Assembly: GCA_016208915.1 (NCBI GenBank)
Contig: JACQXE010000016.1
Span: 1-35,958 of the forward strand
DNA length: 35,958 nt
Source of the DNA: Nitrospirota bacterium
GTDB lineage: Bacteria > Nitrospirota > Thermodesulfovibrionia > Thermodesulfovibrionales > UBA1546
Direction of reading: 5' to 3'
Below the pieces are notes generated by a model. The model made no database searches and had not been told where the DNA came from. It saw nothing but the letters and a program-made list of their open reading frames with translations. Within the stretch, counting starts at the first letter, position 1. Each line of letters opens with the position of its first letter. The position numbers and the translations under genes were made by a program. This document shows positions 8,147-23,788 of the stretch, in pieces.

Positions 8147-8983
8147 TTAGCTCATTAATATCTCGAGAAGTCGGTCGAGTTCCTCAAGAGAATAATACTC
8201 TATCTCTATTCTTCCACCCTTTTTGCCTTTGTGATGGATTTTTACCTTTGTGCCGAGGCTTTTTATTAATTTATCCTCGAGTGCCGCTATCTGTGCATCT
8301 CTATGTGGTGGGGTTATTTTTGATTTTTTGACTCCTGGAAAGTTTATATTTTTCCCCAGCGCTTCTGTCTCTCTTACGCTAAGCCCTTTTTTTATGACTG
8401 CCCTTGCTGCCTCTATCTGGTTAATCCTTCCTTCAATAGAGAGTATTGCCCTTGCATGTCCCATGCTTAATTCTCCGTCAGAAACCAGTGTCTTAATCTC
8501 TTCAGGGAGTTTTAATAATCTGAGGTAATTTGCTACAGTAGCCCTGTCTTTGCCAACCTTTTCTGAAAGTTCTTCCTGTGTGAGGTCGAAGTCTTTCATC
8601 AGTCTGTTGAATGCTTCTGCTGTCTCTATCGCATTCAAATCCTCACGCTGGATATTTTCAATAAGCGCTATCTCGAGTGCATCTTCAGAGGCAACCTCTT
8701 TTATGATTGCAGGTATTTTTTTCAGCCCTGCAATCTGTGAAGCGCGCCATCTGCGTTCACCTGCAATGAGCTTGAACGAGCCGTCACCAACCCTTGAAAC
8801 AAGGATGGGTTGTAAAACCCCCCTCGCTTTTATTGATGATGAAAGCTCGTTTAGAGAGTTGTCTCTGAATATCTTCCTCGGCTGCTCTCCTCCCGGGAAG
8901 ATACGGTTAATATCCAGTTGCAGCACTTCCTCTCCCCGTTCAGGGAGCAGGGCCTCAAGTCCTTTTCCTAATGCTGTTTTCAT
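8147..8983 (-). CDS. parB: chromosome partitioning protein ParB
   Basis: 278 residues, normal for chromosomal ParB/Spo0J. The N-terminal tag LGKGLEALLP (residues 5-14) matches the family ParA-contact peptide. The CTP-binding ParB/sulfiredoxin fold is seen in SIKARGVLQPILVS, the GERRWRASQIAG box (residues 76-87) and the IENIQREDLNAIETA box. A helix-turn-helix follows (LTQEELSEKVGKDRATVANYLRLLKLP, about 134-159), and then a C-terminal dimerisation segment ending in EEYY-type residues. It binds parS and loads SMC with ParA. Its start overlaps the end of parA by 29 bp, indicating cotranscription. I saw no parS by eye. Confidence 0.95.
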   Translation of the reverse strand: MKTALGKGLEALLPERGEEVLQLDINRIFPGGEQPRKIFRDNSLNELSSSIKARGVLQPILVSRVGDGSFKLIAGERRWRASQIAGLKKIPAIIKEVASEDALEIALIENIQREDLNAIETAEAFNRLMKDFDLTQEELSEKVGKDRATVANYLRLLKLPEEIKTLVSDGELSMGHARAILSIEGRINQIEAARAVIKKGLSVRETEALGKNINFPGVKKSKITPPHRDAQIAALEDKLIKSLGTKVKIHHKGKKGGRIEIEYYSLEELDRLLEILMS

Positions 8984-13786: not shown

Positions 13787-14755
13787 ATGGAAAACATTCT
13801 TGACATAGCAAAAAAAGTTCTGAAGATAGAAGCTGATGCAGTACTAAACCTTATTGAAAACCTAAACAGCAGCTTCGAGAAGGCTATTGATATTATCTAT
13901 CACAGCAAAGGCAGGGTTGTTGTGACAGGAATGGGCAAATCAGGGCTCATAGGCAAAAAGATCGCAGCGACACTTGCCTCAACAGGCACTCCTGCTTTTT
14001 TTATGCATCCTGCTGAGGCAAGCCACGGGGACTTAGGGATGGTTACAGCTGATGATGTAATTATTGCTATTTCAAACAGCGGCGAGACAGAGGAGATTGC
14101 AAGGCTTATTCCTTTTTTGAAAAGGTTTAATGTAAGTCTTATCACCATGACAGGAAATTCTAATTCTACATTAGCAAAAGCAGCAGATGTGCATCTTGAT
14201 ATCTCAGTCAAAAAAGAGGCCTGTTCTCTCGGGATAGTGCCTACGGCATCAACAACCGCTGCACTCGCAATGGGCGATGCAGTTGCAGTTGCACTTTTAA
14301 CAAAAAGAGGATTAAAAGAAGAGGATTTCGCTTTTTTCCATCCCGGTGGAAGCCTTGGAAAAAAACTATTCATAAAGGTAAAAGACCTCATGCATGCTGG
14401 CGATGCATTGCCTGTTATCTTTCCTGACATACCCATGACCAAAGCGCTCATGGAGATATCTTCTAAAAGGCTCGGAGTAACTATTGTCGCAGGTTCGGAC
14501 AGCAAGATTCTTGGAATAATCACAGATGGCGACCTGAGGCGCGGGATAGAGAAATGGGGCAAAGCCCTTTTTGATATGAAGGCAGGCGAAGTAATGACAA
14601 AAAATCCTAAGACAATATCGGAAGATGATCTTGCCGTAAAAGCTTTGTCAATAATGGAGAGCAAATCCATAACATCCCTTGTAGTGCCGGATAACGATGG
14701 AAGGGCAAAGGGGATAATTCACCTGCATGACATATTGAGGAAGGGGATAGTGTGA
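13787..14755 (+). CDS. kdsD: arabinose-5-phosphate isomerase
   Basis: 322 residues, normal KdsD/GutQ length; converts ribulose-5-phosphate to arabinose-5-phosphate for KdsA. The SIS sugar-isomerase domain spans about 30-175 with GMGKSGLIGKKIAATLASTG, HPAEASHGDLGMV and SNSGETEE. Two CBS domains follow at about 200-320 (VKDLMHAGDALPVI and VMTKNPKTI). AAGGA precedes the ATG by 7 nt. In many genomes kdsC follows directly; here the partner kdsC is 8.5 kb further on, past an inserted defence-like island. Confidence 0.96.
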   Translation: MENILDIAKKVLKIEADAVLNLIENLNSSFEKAIDIIYHSKGRVVVTGMGKSGLIGKKIAATLASTGTPAFFMHPAEASHGDLGMVTADDVIIAISNSGETEEIARLIPFLKRFNVSLITMTGNSNSTLAKAADVHLDISVKKEACSLGIVPTASTTAALAMGDAVAVALLTKRGLKEEDFAFFHPGGSLGKKLFIKVKDLMHAGDALPVIFPDIPMTKALMEISSKRLGVTIVAGSDSKILGIITDGDLRRGIEKWGKALFDMKAGEVMTKNPKTISEDDLAVKALSIMESKSITSLVVPDNDGRAKGIIHLHDILRKGIV

Positions 14756-14781
14756 GGGATCTCTGCTTGCACACGGTTATA

Positions 14782-14852
14782 AATCCTGCAATAAGAAATT
14801 TGGTTATTGCAGGATTCTGGCTTATCATGCAATAATAATCTTGTTTATTGCA
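14782..14852 (+). promoter_or_regulatory. two matching palindromes, probable operator/promoter of the fic island
   Basis: Palindrome 1 has perfect 13-bp arms (14782-14794 and 14804-14816), palindrome 2 has 8-bp arms (14828-14835 and 14845-14852). Both contain TGCAATAA, a 9-nt spacer, then TTATTGCA. Equivalent positions lie 41 bp apart, close to four helical turns. A possible promoter, TTGCAG (14808-14813) with 17 bp to AATAAT (14831-14836), would lie across the two, so a bound protein could block it. A third half site, GCAATA, lies at about 14860. There is no T-run, so they are unlikely to be terminators. Confidence 0.6.
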
Positions 14853-14878
14853 GCATCGAGCAATAGAGAGGTAAGGCA

Positions 14879-16036
14879 TTGAACCCAAAGGATTTTGAAT
14901 CTTCATCCTCAGGCCGTTGTATAAAGACATTAAATGGATATTGGGCATTTGTGCCAAATCCATTGCCCCCAGTTATAAGTTATGATAAAAAACTCATCAG
15001 CCTTCTTTCAGAAGCAGACAGGCTGTTAGGAGAACTATCAGGGACAGGAAGACTGCTGCCTAACCCCTATCTTTTAATTGCCCCCTATATTCGCCGTGAG
15101 GCGGTCTCAAGTTCAAGGATTGAAGGGACACAGGCATCACTTAGCGATCTGTTTTTCTATGAAGCATCGGAGGAATCTAAAGTGCCAGATGTGATTGAAG
15201 TGAGAAATTACGTTCAGGCAATGGAATATGGGATTAAACGTCTTAAGGATTTGCCGATCTCTACAAGGTTGATTAATGAAATTCACAAGGTTTTGATGAA
15301 AGGAGTTAGAGGCGACCACGCAACTCCTGGAGAGATTCGTCGCAGTCAAAACTGGATAGGATCTCCGGGGTGCACGCTTAATGAAGCTACTTATGTTCCG
15401 CCGCCTGTAGAAGAGATGAAAGAGACATTGAGCACATGGGAAAAGTACCTTCACTCCAATCCTGAAGAGCCTCCTTTAATTCAATGCGCTCTTTTGCATT
15501 ATCAATTTGAAGCCATTCACCCGTTTCTTGACGGCAATGGCCGTATCGGAAGGCTTATAATCACCTTTTTCCTCTATGAGAAGGAATATTTAACACAGCC
15601 CTTGCTTTATCTGTCAGCATTTTTTGACAAGTACAGAGATGAATATTATGATAGACTGCTTGCAGTGAGTCATAAAGGTGACTGGCGGGGATGGCTAGAA
15701 TTTTTCTTGCGAGGTGTAATTAATCAATCCAAAGATGCTATCACAGATGCAAAGAAGATACTTACACTCCATGCAGAGTACCAAACTCTTCTTGAAGAAA
15801 CAAGAAAGGTGCCTGAATCGGCACATCGGTTAATTGATGAGATCTTTGTAAATCCTGTTATTTCTATATCAGGGGTAAGCAAAAAGTGGAAGATTTCTTT
15901 TAATTCAGTAAAGACAGGCGTATTAAGACTCGTCAGTATAGGCATTCTTCATGAACTGTCAGGGAAAAAACGCAATAAACTTTTTATTGCTCCTAAATTG
16001 TTGAAATTGTTGACTGCAGGAGATACAGGGAGGTAA
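14879..16036 (+). CDS. Fic family AMP-transferase with N-terminal inhibitory motif and winged helix
   Basis: 385 residues. The N-terminal Fic_N region carries SSRIEGT (about 78-84), matching the inhibitory helix motif (S/T)xxxE(G/N) of self-inhibited Fic proteins. The catalytic motif HPFLDGNGRIGR is complete (214-225). The C-terminal part (about 315-375, NPVISISGVSKKWKISFNSV) is a winged helix. By family it transfers AMP from ATP to a protein hydroxyl; the target is unknown. The start is TTG with GAGAGG 7 nt upstream. It is the first gene of the inserted island. Paired palindromes lie directly before it, and the winged helix makes self-regulation likely (inference). Confidence 0.9.
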   Translation: MNPKDFESSSSGRCIKTLNGYWAFVPNPLPPVISYDKKLISLLSEADRLLGELSGTGRLLPNPYLLIAPYIRREAVSSSRIEGTQASLSDLFFYEASEESKVPDVIEVRNYVQAMEYGIKRLKDLPISTRLINEIHKVLMKGVRGDHATPGEIRRSQNWIGSPGCTLNEATYVPPPVEEMKETLSTWEKYLHSNPEEPPLIQCALLHYQFEAIHPFLDGNGRIGRLIITFFLYEKEYLTQPLLYLSAFFDKYRDEYYDRLLAVSHKGDWRGWLEFFLRGVINQSKDAITDAKKILTLHAEYQTLLEETRKVPESAHRLIDEIFVNPVISISGVSKKWKISFNSVKTGVLRLVSIGILHELSGKKRNKLFIAPKLLKLLTAGDTGR

Positions 16037-16066
16037 TTAAATTCTAAAAAGGTATAAACCTAACTG

Positions 16067-18037
16067 ATGCCGGGTAAAAGCAAAAAAATCCAATCTCAGA
16101 AGGATTTACTGAACATTCAGGAGGAATCTCAGAAGCAAACCCTTCCTGAGCAGAAAAAGGTCTTTTCTGTTTCAGATAAGATTCGCAAGCGTGTGCATAA
16201 TCTGCCGGACCCAGCAAGGCCGCCTTTGGGATATGATGAACACAAAGCGTTTGACAGGGTGTTTCCGTATATCCGCCTTCCACGACTTCATCCGCCGAAT
16301 CACGGCGATACTGTAATCTTTAACGCTCCTGAACTTCCGGCGAATCAGCTTATTCTTGGTGATAATCTGGAGGTTTTAAGGACGCTCCCTACTGAATCAG
16401 TTGACTTGATTTATAATGATCCGCCGTTTTTCTCTGGAAGAAACTACAACGTCATATGGGGTGATTCAAATGAGGTGCGCTCTTTTCATGACATCTGGGA
16501 AGGCGGTATTGATTCATATCTTATTTGGCTGAATGCCCGTCTATGGGAAATGCGCCGCGTCCTCAAGAAGACAGGCTCAATTTATATCCACTGTGACTGG
16601 CACGCAAGCCATTATATCAAATGCGAGATGGATAAAATTTTTGGGTATGAGAATTTTGGAAATGAAATCGTTTGGTGCTATACAGCACCTTCAAATGTGA
16701 GAGATTATTTTCCAAAAAAGCATGACATTATTTTTAGATATACAAAGACAGCGGAATGGATTTTCAACTACGAAGAAATCTCAATGCCATATTCAGAAGA
16801 AACTGTAGCTCGAACGCATAGAGGTGCTGGAAACGAGGGTTTATATTTAGACAGAAATCCGGAAACAAAACACAAAAATAGACTGAAACCTGCGGGTAAG
16901 ATACCTGAAGATTGGTGGACAATTCCCAGGCTACAAGGCAATGCAGTGGAACGGATTGGCTATCCCACACAAAAACCAGAACTCTTGTTAGAGCGAATCA
17001 TCAAAGCCTCTTCCGATGAAGGTGATGTAGTTGCTGATTTCTTTGGAGGCGGGGGAACAACCTTTGCCGTTGCCATGAAAAATAAGCGCAGGTTTATCGG
17101 CTGTGATTCTTCGCGCGTGGCGATTTCGGTAACGTTGGACAGGCTGGTAAAAATCGGTGAGGAGATGAGCGGAGTTGAAAGCAATCTGTCTTCCAAAGAG
17201 AGCCATTTCCAGCCAAAATTACAGGCAGACGGGACAGTTGAGAAAGTCCCTAATATTGAAGTCTCATATCTCGGAGTCTATCCGGTTGATAAATTCAGCC
17301 ATATTACCCAGAATTCTTTCATTGATTTTGTTCTTACCTGCTATGGAGCAAGTCATAATACTGCCGAAGGCGTTGCTCATGGTTTTCGCCCACCCGGACA
17401 GCAGGAGCCGATATTGGTTGGCCCTGCAAATCCAAATGATTCCTTGGATGCAGAGACGGTGAAAGCATTCTTTGATGAGATAAAATCCCGCCTTGAGCCG
17501 GATAAACTTGTCCGTGCAAAGATTATCGGCTGGAGATTTAATCGTCAGGTAGTGGAATATATCAAGGTCTTGAAAAAATATATTGAGGATAATCAGTTGC
17601 CGATCGAGATTGACTTGATTCCCCTTGATTCAAAGGAATTCAGAAGAAGAATCCTTCAGCGTTATCAGGATGTTGACGAGGCCGAGTTTTACTTGCGATT
17701 TTCAAAACCGCCGGTAATCGGCGATATTCGCATTAAGAAATTCAGCGCTCTTGAATATGAGTTTGAAGCAATGGATGCCTTCTCATCCAATGAAGACGGC
17801 TATCTCGTCAACTGCCAATGGGACTTTGATTATCACGAAGGACATTTGACAGCAGACAAGGAATATATTCTTTCCCGCGAGAAGATAAAGCCAAAAGGCA
17901 GGGATGAGAGATTTGAGGCAATCTTAACAGCCAAACACAAATTTGAAAAAGAAGGTGAATACACCATCGCCTGTAAAGTGCAGGACAATCTGGCAGGGGA
18001 GACGGTGCTGGCGAAGAGGGTGAAGGTGGAGGACTAA
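16067..18037 (+). CDS. beta-class N6-adenine DNA methyltransferase (type III Mod-like)
   Basis: 656 residues. The catalytic motif IV is NDPPF (117-121; a DPPY variant). It precedes the SAM-binding motif DFFGGGGTTFA (324-334), with the target region between, which is the beta order typical of type III Mod enzymes. The GYPTQKPELLLERII stretch (298-312) is also typical. Residues about 390-656 form an extra C-terminal part with FAFE-like and CQWDFDYHEGH stretches that I cannot assign. It would methylate adenine in an asymmetric site and protect self DNA. It abuts the next helicase gene (TAAATG) and is followed by restriction-type genes, so it is the modification arm of the island. Confidence 0.9.
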   Translation: MPGKSKKIQSQKDLLNIQEESQKQTLPEQKKVFSVSDKIRKRVHNLPDPARPPLGYDEHKAFDRVFPYIRLPRLHPPNHGDTVIFNAPELPANQLILGDNLEVLRTLPTESVDLIYNDPPFFSGRNYNVIWGDSNEVRSFHDIWEGGIDSYLIWLNARLWEMRRVLKKTGSIYIHCDWHASHYIKCEMDKIFGYENFGNEIVWCYTAPSNVRDYFPKKHDIIFRYTKTAEWIFNYEEISMPYSEETVARTHRGAGNEGLYLDRNPETKHKNRLKPAGKIPEDWWTIPRLQGNAVERIGYPTQKPELLLERIIKASSDEGDVVADFFGGGGTTFAVAMKNKRRFIGCDSSRVAISVTLDRLVKIGEEMSGVESNLSSKESHFQPKLQADGTVEKVPNIEVSYLGVYPVDKFSHITQNSFIDFVLTCYGASHNTAEGVAHGFRPPGQQEPILVGPANPNDSLDAETVKAFFDEIKSRLEPDKLVRAKIIGWRFNRQVVEYIKVLKKYIEDNQLPIEIDLIPLDSKEFRRRILQRYQDVDEAEFYLRFSKPPVIGDIRIKKFSALEYEFEAMDAFSSNEDGYLVNCQWDFDYHEGHLTADKEYILSREKIKPKGRDERFEAILTAKHKFEKEGEYTIACKVQDNLAGETVLAKRVKVED

Positions 18038-19954
18038 ATGTTTAATCCAACTGCAGAACAACAAAAAATAATTGACCATTTTAATGGGCATGCAATTGTA
18101 GTGGCTGGACCGGGGTCTGGCAAAACAGTGACGCTGATTGCTCATGTCAACAAATTGATCAATGATAGAAACATCTCACCAGACGATATATGGATCATGG
18201 CTTTTAACAGAGATATTTCTTCAAAACTTAGAGAAAAGATTCAAAATGAGATAGGGAGTAAAATACCTCAAATCACAACAATTCATACATTTATTCTTAA
18301 ACAGACCCTCAAGCACGGGACACAGATACTTGGCGGATTTGAAATTGCTGATGGATTAGGTGAATGTGGAAAGGAAAATTTATTATGGAAGTCAATAATT
18401 AAAAGATTGAAAGAGAAACACGGAATAGAAAAAACGCTGGATAATAAACGCTTGGACATTCGACATGTAAAAGGATTTTTATGGAACGAACTCAGGGACT
18501 ATTGGCTGACATCCAAAAAACCTAACAACAATCTGTTTGATAAGTTTAACTTCGAGATAGAACGTCTTAAAGCAATATATAAAATTATTTTCCTTGATGA
18601 ATTAGCGATAAAATTTCTTGATGCACTTAAAGCAAATCCTTCTTTCAGGCAGGATGTCCATAAGCCAAGAATTGTGATTGATGAATTTCAGGATTTAAAC
18701 CCTGCAGAGCATGGAATTTTACAGCAGTTTCATGAGGAAGGAACGACTTTTATTGTTTTTGGAGACGATGATCAGGCAGTAAACGATTTTCGACGTGCAC
18801 ATGCAGACTATATTCAGGATTTCACAAAAATATATAAGCCAGAGCAATATCCTTTACTGAGAAACAGAAGATGTCCGAAAGAAATTTTAGAATTAGCAGA
18901 TGAATTTGTTAAAGGGCTTCCACGTTTAAAAAAGCTGGCTGGTTACGCCTCTCATAAAGGTAAAGTGGATATACTTGATTTTGATACTGATGAGGTTGAA
19001 CAATTAGAAATTGCCAACATTGTAAAAAAATATCTTTCATTATTCCAACAATACCAAGACAATCCTCAAATCTTAATCCTATGCGGAACAACTGGAAAAG
19101 TTAAGGGACAATCTCGAATTGCTGAAGTTATTGAAATCTTGAAAAATGCAGAGGTCAATGAAGTAACAGGTGATAAGAAAGAAGACCCACTGGATAATGA
19201 GTGGGGACTTGCTTTTAAATCCTTAACAGCTATTTTGGTTAAGGGGTTGACCCCGATGAATATTGCTGCTTTTTTATCGGTTGCTGATTTTTCCTTACTG
19301 AAAACAGTAAATGAACACATTGAAGAAGCAGAACGGCAAGGGAACCGAATAGATTTCTTAAAAACACTCTCTGACCTTGGAAAAAATAATTCAAGTGTTG
19401 AAAAGTTGCTTTCCGATATAGAAAATTTAAAGGAAAAAATAAAGGATGAAAAATTTAATCCAGACATTATTATAAGTTTTATTAAAAATAGTTTGGATGG
19501 TAAGAATGATGCGGAGCCATTTATTAAGAAAGTCTGGGAGGAATCTCAAAAAAAACACGAAGAAAAATTAAGCAAGGGCGAGCAGTTCTTACAATTGCTA
19601 AACAAATATATTACTGAGGAAATAAAGAAACAAGAGATTGGTCGTGTCCATGTAACAACATACAGAAAATCGAAAGGATTAGAAGCAGAACTGGTTATTG
19701 TTACATCGGTTGATTCAAGTGATTTCTTTGACCAGCAACAAAAAAGGCGTCTCTTATATGTTGCAGCTACCCGCTCTAAAAAGAACCTTATACTAACTTT
19801 TGCAAACAAAAGAAGCGGTGCTCGCCGATTTACACGTGGGAGAGATAAGAAATTCAAAGGCGTGCCAAGAGTTTTTCGTTCTCATTTGATACCAAGCAGT
19901 TATCAAACAATCAACTATTCTGAAGAATGGTTGAAAAATTGGGAACCAATATAG
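18038..19954 (+). CDS. UvrD/Rep-like superfamily 1 DNA helicase
   Basis: 638 residues. SF1A motifs in order: Q motif NPTAEQQKII (3-12), Walker A AGPGSGKT (23-30), motif II VIDEFQDLNPAE (about 213-224), motif III GDDDQAVNDFRRA (about 242-254), motif IV LRNRRCPKEIL, motif V VHVTTYRKSKGLEAELVIV (about 536-554) and motif VI RRLLYVAATRSKKNLIL. It is a 3'-5' translocase by family. The ATG follows the methyltransferase stop with no gap, so the two are probably coupled. A UvrD-like helicase between Mod and Res is not part of a standard type III system. The sequence looks more AT-rich by eye than the KDO genes, consistent with transfer. Confidence 0.9.
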   Translation: MFNPTAEQQKIIDHFNGHAIVVAGPGSGKTVTLIAHVNKLINDRNISPDDIWIMAFNRDISSKLREKIQNEIGSKIPQITTIHTFILKQTLKHGTQILGGFEIADGLGECGKENLLWKSIIKRLKEKHGIEKTLDNKRLDIRHVKGFLWNELRDYWLTSKKPNNNLFDKFNFEIERLKAIYKIIFLDELAIKFLDALKANPSFRQDVHKPRIVIDEFQDLNPAEHGILQQFHEEGTTFIVFGDDDQAVNDFRRAHADYIQDFTKIYKPEQYPLLRNRRCPKEILELADEFVKGLPRLKKLAGYASHKGKVDILDFDTDEVEQLEIANIVKKYLSLFQQYQDNPQILILCGTTGKVKGQSRIAEVIEILKNAEVNEVTGDKKEDPLDNEWGLAFKSLTAILVKGLTPMNIAAFLSVADFSLLKTVNEHIEEAERQGNRIDFLKTLSDLGKNNSSVEKLLSDIENLKEKIKDEKFNPDIIISFIKNSLDGKNDAEPFIKKVWEESQKKHEEKLSKGEQFLQLLNKYITEEIKKQEIGRVHVTTYRKSKGLEAELVIVTSVDSSDFFDQQQKRRLLYVAATRSKKNLILTFANKRSGARRFTRGRDKKFKGVPRVFRSHLIPSSYQTINYSEEWLKNWEPI

Positions 19955-19957
19955 ACC

Positions 19958-20038
19958 ATGTACTATTCTTTTAAATCTCACGAAGCAAATTTTAAGAAAT
20001 GGCTGAAATCAGGCACAAGATATGTTAGTTTTTGTTGA
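19958..20038 (+). pseudogene. duplicated 5' stub of the restriction helicase gene
   Basis: A 26-codon frame starts MYYSFKSHEANFKKWLKSG and matches the first 19 residues of the restriction helicase at 20776 (MHYSFKPHEANFKEWVKSG) at 15 positions. The DNA match is about 49 of 57 bases. After that the resemblance stops, and a TGA ends the frame inside the start of the DUF3800 gene. It is therefore an old partial duplicate flanking the DUF3800 insertion, or a short leader peptide retained for translational coupling. It starts 3 bp after the SF1 helicase stop. Confidence 0.7.
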
Positions 20039-20654
20039 TGAATCAGGAGACTCAGGATTTAAGACCGAGCAGGGGTCAAGTCAATTCTTCACCGTTGCAT
20101 TGGTTATTTTTGAAGAACATGACGAGGCAACTGCCTGCGACCAGCGAATTCAACTTCTACGGCGTGAGCTCGGCTGGAACGAACGCTCTGAGTTTCACTT
20201 TAACCGTAATTCAGACAGAGTAAGGCGGACATTCTTACAGGCTGTTTCTCCTTACAATTTTTTCTATTATGGGATTGTCCTGAATAAAGACCCTCAGAAG
20301 TTATGGGGTGAGGGATTTCGGCATAAGCCCTCATTTTACAAGTATACCTGTAGTCTTGTTTTTGAAAATGCAAAGGAAAAGCTGAATAGGGCGCACGTTA
20401 TTATTGATAAAAGCGGCAATCTGGATTTCAGGAGGCAGCTTGCAAAATATTTGACAGGGAAAATAAATGAGGAACATCGTAAAATTATTACACAGGTAAA
20501 AATGCAGCGCTCTGAGAGCAATAATTTGCTTCAACTTACTGATTACATAGCCGGTGTGATTAATCGTTCTGTTCAGAGAGACAAGAAATTTAGCGCAGAC
20601 TATCGGCGGATTATTGCGCATAGGGAAATGTATGTCCAGATATGGCCTAGATAA
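20022..20654 (+). CDS. DUF3800 domain protein
   Basis: 210 residues, full length for the family. The N-terminal signature FVDESGDSGF (residues 4-13), the central IIDKSGN (about 126-132), and the C-terminal LLQLTDYIAGVINRS (about 169-183) with acidic residues and the final MYVQIWP match DUF3800. The family is thought to have an RNase H-like fold with an acidic active site and is often seen next to defence genes; activity is unproven. It starts within the duplicated restriction gene stub, in another frame. It lies between the two helicases and seems to be an insertion in the island. Confidence 0.85.
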   Translation: MLVFVDESGDSGFKTEQGSSQFFTVALVIFEEHDEATACDQRIQLLRRELGWNERSEFHFNRNSDRVRRTFLQAVSPYNFFYYGIVLNKDPQKLWGEGFRHKPSFYKYTCSLVFENAKEKLNRAHVIIDKSGNLDFRRQLAKYLTGKINEEHRKIITQVKMQRSESNNLLQLTDYIAGVINRSVQRDKKFSADYRRIIAHREMYVQIWPR

Positions 20655-20775
20655 AAATAAAACTTCCGACCCTATCCTTTTCAGGAACGCGGGCGATAAA
20701 CGCCACAGTTCAGGCCGGAAGCAATTCCAATATTATTTTGGATGAATACATGAACTTTGTCAAGAAATAAAAACT
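20655..20775 (+). other. gap with possible nested hairpins and a start-less open frame
   Basis: Near 20664-20722, CTTCCGACC faces GGCCGGAAG (one mismatch) around an inner hairpin GGCG-ATAAA-CGCC, so a branched RNA or DNA fold is possible. In the frame 20651-20770 there is no stop before TAA, and the end reads GSNSNIILDEYMNFVKK, like a protein C-terminus, but there is no start or ribosome site. It may be the tail of a gene lost when DUF3800 and its flank were acquired. Low certainty. Confidence 0.3.
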
Positions 20776-22806
20776 ATGCACTATTCTTTTAAACCACACG
20801 AGGCAAATTTTAAGGAATGGGTGAAATCGGGATTTATCGGAGTCCCTGATGCAGGCGTTATATTTTTAAAATACCTTTCTTCTCCTCATTTCAAGCCAAG
20901 GATGGAACTCTTCAGCGACAAGCAGTGGAAGATGCAGCTTGAGGCAATTCATAGATGTATTTATTGCTTTGAAATCTTAGGTGAAAAAGACCTTTTAACC
21001 AATATAGTCACAGGCGGCGGAAAGACAACCATCATTGGGACCATGATCGCTTATATGATGATTGTTCATGACCAGACAAAATTTCTGATTCTGACGCCAA
21101 ATACAATTGTCCGTGAAAGGCTGGCTGATGATTTTGACAGAAATTCTGACAGCTATATTTATGACACATTCCCTTTGTTCTTTAACTCATACGAACCTTT
21201 AAAAGACAGGATTTCTCTGCATATAATGAAGCCTTCGGAGAGTGCTGCAGGTGTAAGGGCTGGGACAATTATCTTAGGCAATATCCATCAGATTTATGAG
21301 CGGACGGATAACTGGAAGGTATTGAGGGACAATGTAGAATCTCTCTGCATCTTTAATGACGAGGCACATAATACAAAGGCCGAGCAGTATGATGATTTGA
21401 TGAATAAGCTTAAGCCAAAACGGTTTTTCCGTCTTGATACCACTGCCACGCCTGACCGTCTTGACGGCAAGCATCCTGACAGCAAAATGATTTTTGTCTA
21501 TTCAATTGCTGACGCAATGAGGGACAAAATCATCAAAAGACCGATAGTCTTTCACCCTGATGTAAAGAAGGTTCAACTTACCTATGAGGATTTAGAGACG
21601 GGGAAAACGATTTCAGCAGAGGAAGTGCCGTGGGAGGAGATTGAGAAAAGAAAAATCAGGGCAACCAGATACATTACAAGCACTAATCCCATGCGCCAGC
21701 AGATAGCTATTGCACTGGAGTTGTTAAAACATCAGCGGATGGCAGCCCCGCCTAAATTTAAACCGTTACTATTTGTGGTAGCAATTTCTATTGCCGATGC
21801 AGAGCGTATCCGTGATGAAATAATCAGTGTTGGCGAACCTTATGGGATTAAAAAAGTCCTTCTGGTAACAAATGAATCTGACGATGAATTAAAAGAGGCT
21901 GCGAGGGATTTAAATAAAAATCCTCAGACGGAATATGATGCTGTTGTCTCAGTCTTGATGCTTCGTGAAGGATGGGATGTGCGTAATATTTCAATAATCC
22001 TTCTTTTCAGGAAATTCAGTTTCAAAGAAATAAACGGACAGAAATATTCTGTTTATGGTCCTCAGGTAATTGGAAGAGGCTTAAGGAGAATGAGCAAGAA
22101 TCCTGAGGAATGGGAATCTCTCTTTGTTGTTGACCATCCGATACTAAAGCATAAATGGCTTTGGGATATGTTAAAGGCAACAGAGTATCCTGACGCATTA
22201 GACCCGGCAGGGGTTATCTTTGATATCGAGAAAATCCCTGTAGAAAAACAATTGGATGCTTTTGATGAAGGAGAGACAACGCTTGAAGCAGCAGAAGAGA
22301 AGCTTGATATTTCATCCTTGCCTCCTACGCCGGAACCTCCTGAGATTGTTGAACCTATTTATGAATGGCAGAAGTTTCTGAACGAATATAAATATGATTT
22401 TTACAGGATGAATATTACCGAGGATGTTGAACAGATAAAGAGCCTTAATCTTGACGCAGGGTTTACTACACTTGATAAGAATGTGCCTGAGATTGAGGTC
22501 GAGAAAATCTCCAGAATCACAAAGACCGAGCATTGGGCAATAGATGAGTTAAAAAAGCAGTTAGTCCGGCAGATTCATTTAATTGCCCGCGATGCACTCC
22601 TCGAATATGACCGTAATCCTGATGACCGGCAGGTTGTTTTGGTAAAAATAATTCGTGAACACATAAAAAACCGCCTCTTGTTGGGAAATGATATTGATGA
22701 ATCAGCTAACGACAAACAGTTACGGATTCTATGGGCAATGATTGAACAGGTGAGGGATATATTTTTAAGACCAGAACTGATAGAAGGAATCTTTTCTAAG
22801 AGATGA
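20776..22806 (+). CDS. SF2 helicase subunit of a type III-like restriction enzyme (Res-like)
   Basis: 676 residues. SF2 motifs: Walker A VTGGGKTT (78-85), NDEAHNT with the DEAH box (195-198), TATPDR (223-228), LMLREGWDV (about 393-401) and the arginine-finger motif QVIGRGLRRM (about 425-434). This is the ResIII/DEAD helicase found in type III Res proteins and related single-gene restriction enzymes. Those normally carry a C-terminal nuclease, for a total of 800-1000 residues. Here the frame stops at TGA, and a PD-(D/E)XK nuclease continues in the same frame two codons later. It would translocate on DNA from recognition sites set by the upstream methyltransferase (inference). Confidence 0.9.
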   Translation: MHYSFKPHEANFKEWVKSGFIGVPDAGVIFLKYLSSPHFKPRMELFSDKQWKMQLEAIHRCIYCFEILGEKDLLTNIVTGGGKTTIIGTMIAYMMIVHDQTKFLILTPNTIVRERLADDFDRNSDSYIYDTFPLFFNSYEPLKDRISLHIMKPSESAAGVRAGTIILGNIHQIYERTDNWKVLRDNVESLCIFNDEAHNTKAEQYDDLMNKLKPKRFFRLDTTATPDRLDGKHPDSKMIFVYSIADAMRDKIIKRPIVFHPDVKKVQLTYEDLETGKTISAEEVPWEEIEKRKIRATRYITSTNPMRQQIAIALELLKHQRMAAPPKFKPLLFVVAISIADAERIRDEIISVGEPYGIKKVLLVTNESDDELKEAARDLNKNPQTEYDAVVSVLMLREGWDVRNISIILLFRKFSFKEINGQKYSVYGPQVIGRGLRRMSKNPEEWESLFVVDHPILKHKWLWDMLKATEYPDALDPAGVIFDIEKIPVEKQLDAFDEGETTLEAAEEKLDISSLPPTPEPPEIVEPIYEWQKFLNEYKYDFYRMNITEDVEQIKSLNLDAGFTTLDKNVPEIEVEKISRITKTEHWAIDELKKQLVRQIHLIARDALLEYDRNPDDRQVVLVKIIREHIKNRLLLGNDIDESANDKQLRILWAMIEQVRDIFLRPELIEGIFSKR

Positions 22807-22809
22807 TTT

Positions 22810-23178
22810 ATGGTTTCTAAAAGAGGGACACTGACAAATCTTAAGAGGAACCCTTCTGGAAAAGAGGAATATGATTCTGCTCTTGAACGGGAATACATGG
22901 TTGAACTGGAAAGGAACCCGGCAGTTAAAACATGGACAAAGAAACATGGGATTAAAATACCATATAAATTTTTTGGGATTACGAGACACTATTGGCCTGA
23001 TTTTATGGTTGAATATAAAGACGGCAGTAAAGAAATCCATGAGACAAAAGGACTGCCGTTACTTCTGTGGCTTTCAACCAAATTGAAGGGGCAGACAGCA
23101 GAGGAATTTTGTAAGGCAAAAGGATGGAAATATAAGATGATTACAAAAGGAAGTCAGGCGTTTTATGGGAAGGTGTGA
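22810..23178 (+). CDS. PD-(D/E)XK nuclease module of the restriction enzyme, separated by a TGA
   Basis: 122 residues with a restriction-type core: EYDSALEREYMVELERNP (helix with the conserved Glu, about 18-35), HYWPDFMVEY (PD at about 60-61) and IHETKG (ExK at about 75-77), then a helix and GWKYKMITKGS. This is the PD...ExK active site resembling TnsA-type and Res C-terminal nucleases. It lies in the same frame as the preceding helicase, with only TGA and TTT between. It may be a free subunit made by reinitiation at ATG 22810, or the true C-terminus of the helicase cut off by a stop. It is the last gene of the island. Confidence 0.85.
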   Translation: MVSKRGTLTNLKRNPSGKEEYDSALEREYMVELERNPAVKTWTKKHGIKIPYKFFGITRHYWPDFMVEYKDGSKEIHETKGLPLLLWLSTKLKGQTAEEFCKAKGWKYKMITKGSQAFYGKV

Positions 23179-23248
23179 AATATAGAGATAACTGTGAGAA
23201 ACAAAGACTTCTGGAAATGAAAATTCTTAAAGGGTAGAATATAAAACT

Positions 23249-23788
23249 ATGAAAGTTACAAAAAAACAACTCGCAACACTCGCCAAAAACATCAAACTAG
23301 TCATTTTTGATGTTGATGGCGTGCTCACAGACGGACGCATCATCCTTGATAATGAAGGTAATGAGTTCAAGGCATTTCACGTGCGGGACGGACATGGGAT
23401 AAAAATGCTCATAAGGGCAGGTGTCAAGGTTGCATTAATTACAGGAAGGCAGTCAAAGGTTGTTGCGAGAAGGGCTAAGGAACTCGGCATAACCGAAGTC
23501 TTTCAGAAATGTTATGACAAGAGAGAGGCATACAAACGCATTAAGAAGAAGTTTTCGCTTAGAGATAACGAGATAGCATATGTAGGAGATGACATAGTTG
23601 ACTTGCCTTTGATGAAAAGCGTGGGGCTTTCCTTTGCAGTTGCTGATTCCTCTTATGAGGTTAGGTCTCATGCAACAGAGGTCACAAAAAATCCAGGAGG
23701 AAAATGCGCTGTGAGGGAGGTTACGGACCTAATCTTAAAAGCGAAAGGATTATGGAACAGAATTATAGATGGGTACCTTAAAAATTAA
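23249..23788 (+). CDS. kdsC: KDO-8-phosphate phosphatase
   Basis: 179-residue HAD phosphatase of the small C0 type. The catalytic motif IFDVDGVLTDG (residues 19-29), ALITGR (motif II, about 62-67), a conserved lysine region, and VGDDIVDLPLMKSVGLSFAV (motif III/IV, about 112-131) are intact. It removes phosphate from KDO-8-phosphate, the step between KdsA and KdsB. The island separates it from kdsD. The 70-bp gap before it shows no clear promoter, so its transcription may come from the island or a weak local site. It overlaps pgsA by 20 bp. Confidence 0.94.
   Translation: MKVTKKQLATLAKNIKLVIFDVDGVLTDGRIILDNEGNEFKAFHVRDGHGIKMLIRAGVKVALITGRQSKVVARRAKELGITEVFQKCYDKREAYKRIKKKFSLRDNEIAYVGDDIVDLPLMKSVGLSFAVADSSYEVRSHATEVTKNPGGKCAVREVTDLILKAKGLWNRIIDGYLKN

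Follow-up and report, generated by a model that had tools for sequence, protein, structure and literature searches.

The restriction operon described here is probably a type III-like system of three conserved genes, encoding a methyltransferase (Mod), a helicase (Res) and a nuclease (Nuc), whose mod-res junction forms a slot for exchangeable cargo, the cargo being largely autonomous second-line defence or toxin modules. It lies in a stretch of 35,958 nucleotides from a Nitrospirota bacterium (hereafter the window), where the slot holds a UvrD/GajB-like SF1 helicase and a DUF3800 protein. The initial annotation had taken Mod, UvrD, DUF3800, Res and the nuclease for one functional module, a proposal that finds no support in comparison with relatives, which keep Mod, Res and Nuc only and differ in what fills the slot. 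Its description of an expanded restriction locus stands insofar as defence-type genes are packed in with a type III-like Mod/Res pair and a separate nuclease, but the particular combination is not conserved. We regard the Mod-Res slot itself as a better finding than the window's gene combination; a literature search, with subscription papers mostly outside its reach, returned no paper describing such a cargo slot.

The conserved restriction core

The genes of the operon and the neighbouring Fic gene all lie on one strand and where the initial annotation had placed them (Table 1). Domain matches and intact motifs bear out its five families, as well as its observations that the UvrD-like helicase is joined to Mod without a gap, that DUF3800 stands ahead of Res, and that the nuclease module is separate from Res. 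On motif inspection, the catalytic motifs of Mod, UvrD, Res, Nuc and Fic are intact.

Table 1. Features of the restriction locus and its surroundings, in window positions
Feature	Position	Strand	Evidence or description
kpsF-kdsC junction	13787-23788		host site of the restriction unit
Repeats between kpsF and Fic	14783-14856		two near-palindromes of 33 nt, mutually pairing into a strong hairpin
Fic (SoFic-like, autoinhibited type)	14879-16036	+	Fic E=2.5e-21; PADLOC SoFic 9e-126; motifs HPFLDGNGR, SSRIEG
Mod, beta-class DNA methyltransferase (core)	16067-18037	+	Pfam N6_N4_Mtase E=1.5e-49
Mod hypervariable target-recognition region (aa ~204-292)	16676-16942	+	no DNA similarity to L018/L019
UvrD/GajB-like SF1 helicase (slot)	18038-19954	+	UvrD-helicase E=6.6e-39; PADLOC GajB E=3e-39; motifs GPGSGKT, DEFQD
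res relic, first 19 codons	19958-20014	+	tblastn E=4e-9; now a short ORF running into the DUF3800 start
DUF3800 protein (slot)	20022-20654	+	PF12686 E=4e-14
DUF3800-IX ncRNA (Rfam RF02968)	20658-20722	-	55.3 bits vs gathering 36.8; 1-67/67; E=1.7e-9
Res, SF2 helicase (core)	20776-22806	+	ResIII E=8e-18; motifs GGGKT, DEAH, TATP, GRGLR
Nuc, separate 122-aa PD-(D/E)xK nuclease (core)	22810-23178	+	TnsA-like N E=1e-10; RE_endonuc 6.5e-4; motif PD..ETK intact

In type III restriction-modification, a Mod-Res complex acts on two inversely oriented sites, cleaving 25-27 bp from one of them. The window shares with such systems (EcoP15I, EcoPI) a beta-class Mod whose recognition domain is variable, a Res with SF2 helicase motifs, and a PD-(D/E)xK nuclease motif. 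Mod, which matched M.RsrI, CcrM and EcoP15I Mod in phmmer searches, carries DPPF at residue 118 ahead of FFGGG at residue 325, with the hypervariable region between these catalytic and AdoMet motifs. The AlphaFold model of Res superimposes on EcoP15I Res (4zcf_C) with a Z score of 20.6, a match that is not exclusive, as other SF2 helicases match too; a sequence search of solved structures with Res gave no match. We call the operon type III-like because of the Mod architecture and the Res helicase. Since its nuclease is a small gene of its own rather than part of the Res polypeptide, and since its mod-res junction takes exchangeable cargo, we do not file it as canonical type III. The BPTD_3080-family restriction endonuclease (NCBIfam NF046055) is similar in that Res and Nuc of the window match successive parts of its single 970-aa profile, but the two are fused there and split here, and the window scores far below the family cut-off.

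The core recurs in about 80 genomes of many phyla. A Res profile search returned 79 genome loci and 14 loci on viral contigs, in which scans with the single Res and UvrD proteins had found no relatives; plasmid and phage collections yielded distant helicases only. Mod stands upstream of Res in nearly all loci whose sequence extends far enough, and a small separate nuclease ORF, mostly of 115-140 residues, follows Res in 67. The comparison establishes that the unit conserved across phyla is a predicted three-gene type III-like restriction operon, Mod-Res-Nuc. It would methylate self DNA and cut unmodified DNA, with Res as the motor and Nuc as the cutter. In a distant subgroup (L014, 965-1927; L016, 400-1326), a gene for a ClpP-like SDH-type serine proteinase immediately precedes Res, and where Mod would be expected the sequence examined gives no match to it. 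A Roizmanbacteria contig, which also bears a Fic gene, has a Res fragment only (L077, 2184-3044; 76% identical), apparently a decayed copy.

Exchangeable cargo at the mod-res junction

The exchange is apparent between the window and its nearest relative, L018, whose Res is 97% identical in protein and ~92% in DNA. Outside the target-recognition domain their mod genes are 86-89% identical in DNA, and from the Mod stop to the Res start there is no DNA similarity at all. The recognition region itself is equally unrelated to that of L018 and of a second relative, L019, while the DNA on either side of it is 81-89% identical, and column conservation in Mod falls from ~0.92 to ~0.33 within it. This establishes, at the level of aligned genes, that both the Mod recognition domain and the slot cargo have been swapped between near-identical cores. 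Cargo would be exchanged by recombination within the flanking mod and res sequence, which is conserved.

We define as the near clade those loci whose Res is 67-97% identical to that of the window, with Mod orthologues at 60-84%; they come from Nitrospirota, Planctomycetota, Desantisbacteria and several Patescibacteria, and form a small sample of 15, mostly from metagenome-assembled genomes. The slot is occupied in 14 of these 15, as against about 12 of the 63 others (Fisher p=1e-7 without phylogenetic correction), and on the Res tree its occupancy switches state 12 times. Its contents are strikingly varied: TIR and DUF3800 in L018, DUF5677 in L021, Ymh-HEPN in L022, HNH in L023, a trypsin-like protein in L024, DUF3800 in L026, WYL and NYN in L027 and L030, an OLD-like ATPase in L035, and unclassified proteins in L019, L020, L028 and L029. 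When all near-clade slot proteins were compared with each other (E<1e-3), only L027 and L030 had homologous cargo. Distant loci with a slot bear toxin-antitoxin-like pairs (MNT-HEPN, PIN pairs, DUF433 with a PIN-like protein, XRE/M78 with DUF4411) and, further, NYN, AlbA, AAA or PHP-SMC proteins. In all 13 near-clade loci measured, the GC content of the slot is below that of the core (p=2e-4).

Could the junction be no more than a tolerated landing site, created by recombination in mod and res, with cargo that is functionally unlinked to restriction? The surroundings fit such a passive hotspot, as the genes flanking the operon are rich in defence families as well, and the kpsF-kdsC site that the operon occupies is itself a variable island in the window's family. 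Nine of 12 slot genes match defence families compared with five of 10 flanking genes, an excess that is not significant (p=0.38); because flanking genes so often match too, an enrichment of the slot over its surroundings is not established. What speaks against passive insertion is its placement, as 14 of the 15 near-clade loci have insertions between Mod and Res while Res and Nuc are at most ~105 bp apart. Moreover, near-full occupancy in one clade suggests selection. We therefore hold a purely passive hotspot to be a possible but somewhat doubtful explanation.

Cargo as a probable second line behind restriction

PrrC is an ABC-ATPase-HEPN anticodon nuclease in an hsd operon; the window's cargo is a UvrD helicase and a DUF3800 protein, and we invoke PrrC as an analogy only. 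That restriction operons carry back-up toxins, PrrC among others, is an established idea (PMC3710099, PMC12707154). EcoprrI with PrrC, like other toxin-bearing restriction operons, resembles the window in having a defence or toxin gene inside the operon, but the case known best is of type I with a defined toxin, whereas the type III-like core of the window family accepts many unrelated families in one slot. By this analogy, we favour a scenario in which the cargo would be expressed from the restriction operon and act largely by itself once restriction has failed, a back-up such as PrrC provides behind EcoprrI.

The same precedent (PMC3710099, PMC12707154) admits a tighter coupling, in which the restriction complex would keep the slot effector inactive and free it upon phage inhibition or overload, as in EcoprrI. 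The position of the cargo inside the operon and the presence of RNases, TIR proteins and proteases among its classes would agree with such guarding. However, the cargo is too diverse for a common protein contact to be easily imagined, and several cargoes resemble complete toxin-antitoxin pairs with an inhibitor of their own; we consider guarding unlikely. Slightly less likely still would be its generalization to a modular immune chassis, with Mod-Res-Nuc as both enzyme and sensor, and the slot as a plug-in socket for effectors (TIR, RNases, proteases, helicases, an RNA-controlled DUF3800) whose activation would depend on the state of the restriction complex; the recognition domain and the effector would be exchanged independently of each other.

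If the slot proves to be what it appears, defence and toxin modules would naturally gather at the mod-res junction of this restriction family, and reading that junction across genomes would offer a simple route to new ones, as several cargoes match no family. With their near-identical cores, the window and L018 form a natural pair for asking whether restriction and second-line effectors are coupled.

Composition of the window slot

The first cargo gene begins with the very base that follows the Mod stop codon. Its product aligns over nearly the whole GajB profile (positions 19-584 of 604), as in Gabija (GajAB), but the island has no GajA: among the six island proteins scanned, none matched this OLD ATPase-TOPRIM protein. 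The initial annotation had made recurrence of the helicase or DUF3800 next to the Mod/Res pair the touchstone of its proposal. For UvrD the outcome was negative, as this helicase stands beside the Mod/Res core in none of the other loci, L018 with its 97% identical Res included, and it is ruled out as a conserved partner. DUF3800 does recur, in the slots of L018 and L026, which makes three slots in all, but the copies are unrelated.

The second cargo gene comes with an RNA. Directly after it, on the opposite strand, lies a full-length DUF3800-IX RNA scoring above the gathering threshold (Table 1), with a stable predicted fold (z=-3.0) and no dispersed copies in the genome. As an RNA just behind a DUF3800 gene it conforms to its Rfam family, but here gene and RNA sit within a restriction operon. 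Among 199 genomes searched, this RNA occurred in the window's own and in one other, G316, where it likewise closely follows a DUF3800 gene and is encoded on the other strand, in another gene context and without this UvrD adjacent; the two DUF3800 proteins are 35% identical. No such RNA was found beside the DUF3800 genes of L018 or L026. As the same RNA and a related DUF3800 recur in a different context, DUF3800 and its cognate RNA look like a self-contained unit. DUF3800 is described as having an RNase H-like fold (Altae-Tran et al., PMC10910872); our structure model of the window protein is weak (pLDDT 65) and gave no Foldseek match at E<0.001, nor any reaching Z>=8. DUF3800 may be a nuclease under control of its RNA, and the UvrD protein may act on invader DNA.

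Between UvrD and DUF3800 lies a relic of res, 86% identical in nucleotides to the intact res start, where the best of 200 shuffles reached 58%. On the simplest reading, the second module would have brought its own res 5' end, leaving the old start behind. The window slot was thus apparently filled stepwise, with the UvrD/GajB-like helicase followed by DUF3800 and its RNA. A recent target-site duplication was considered as a possible origin of the relic, but its identity to the local res (86%) lies only slightly above that to the res of L018 and L019 (81-82%). A distant member, L042, bears a similar, independent scar, with 35 codons of res lodged between its AAA and AlbA cargo genes (8535-8639).

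Alternatively, UvrD and DUF3800 with its RNA could be a working pair that forms the accessory unit as a whole. The two are adjacent in the window, and UvrD is reported together with DUF3800 in some Cas12a2 loci (Altae-Tran et al., 2023; PMC10910872). However, the res relic separates them, their GC contents differ (0.351 for UvrD and 0.412 for DUF3800, with Mod at 0.438 and Res at 0.405), L018 and L026 have DUF3800 without UvrD, and G316 has DUF3800 and the RNA without this UvrD adjacent. Such a pair is, in our view, quite improbable. Most improbable is an integrated machine of Mod, UvrD, DUF3800, Res and Nuc, together with Fic, in which UvrD would add DNA unwinding and Fic AMPylation. In its favour, the genes share a strand and are tightly packed, UvrD follows the Mod stop without a gap, and UvrD is reported with DUF3800 in some Cas12a2 loci (PMC10910872), but it is largely refuted by absence in relatives, since UvrD is missing from all other loci, even L018, the relic splits UvrD from DUF3800, and L019 has no Fic at the same site.

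Fic neighbour and genomic site

The initial annotation had Fic leading the module. A SoFic-like Fic gene does end 30 bp upstream of Mod, but it is not conserved at the locus: neither L019, at the same site, nor the remaining near-clade loci have it next to Mod. By this comparison, Fic is a neighbour outside the conserved unit. The genes on either side of the host site, kpsF and kdsC, are lipopolysaccharide genes, directly adjacent in many relatives and often with other genes between them in the window's own family. This setting, like the DUF3800-IX RNA and the res relic, had been missed initially. At this insertion hotspot, DUF1016/YhcG nuclease, DUF1828 or TPR proteins are encoded in members of the family, L019 has the same restriction core, and G331 (L017) has a distant Res-Nuc immediately upstream of kdsC. 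Scans for promoters and terminators in the window showed no clear excess over shuffled sequence. The hairpin formed by the two repeats between kpsF and Fic is possibly a terminator or the trace of a mobile element.
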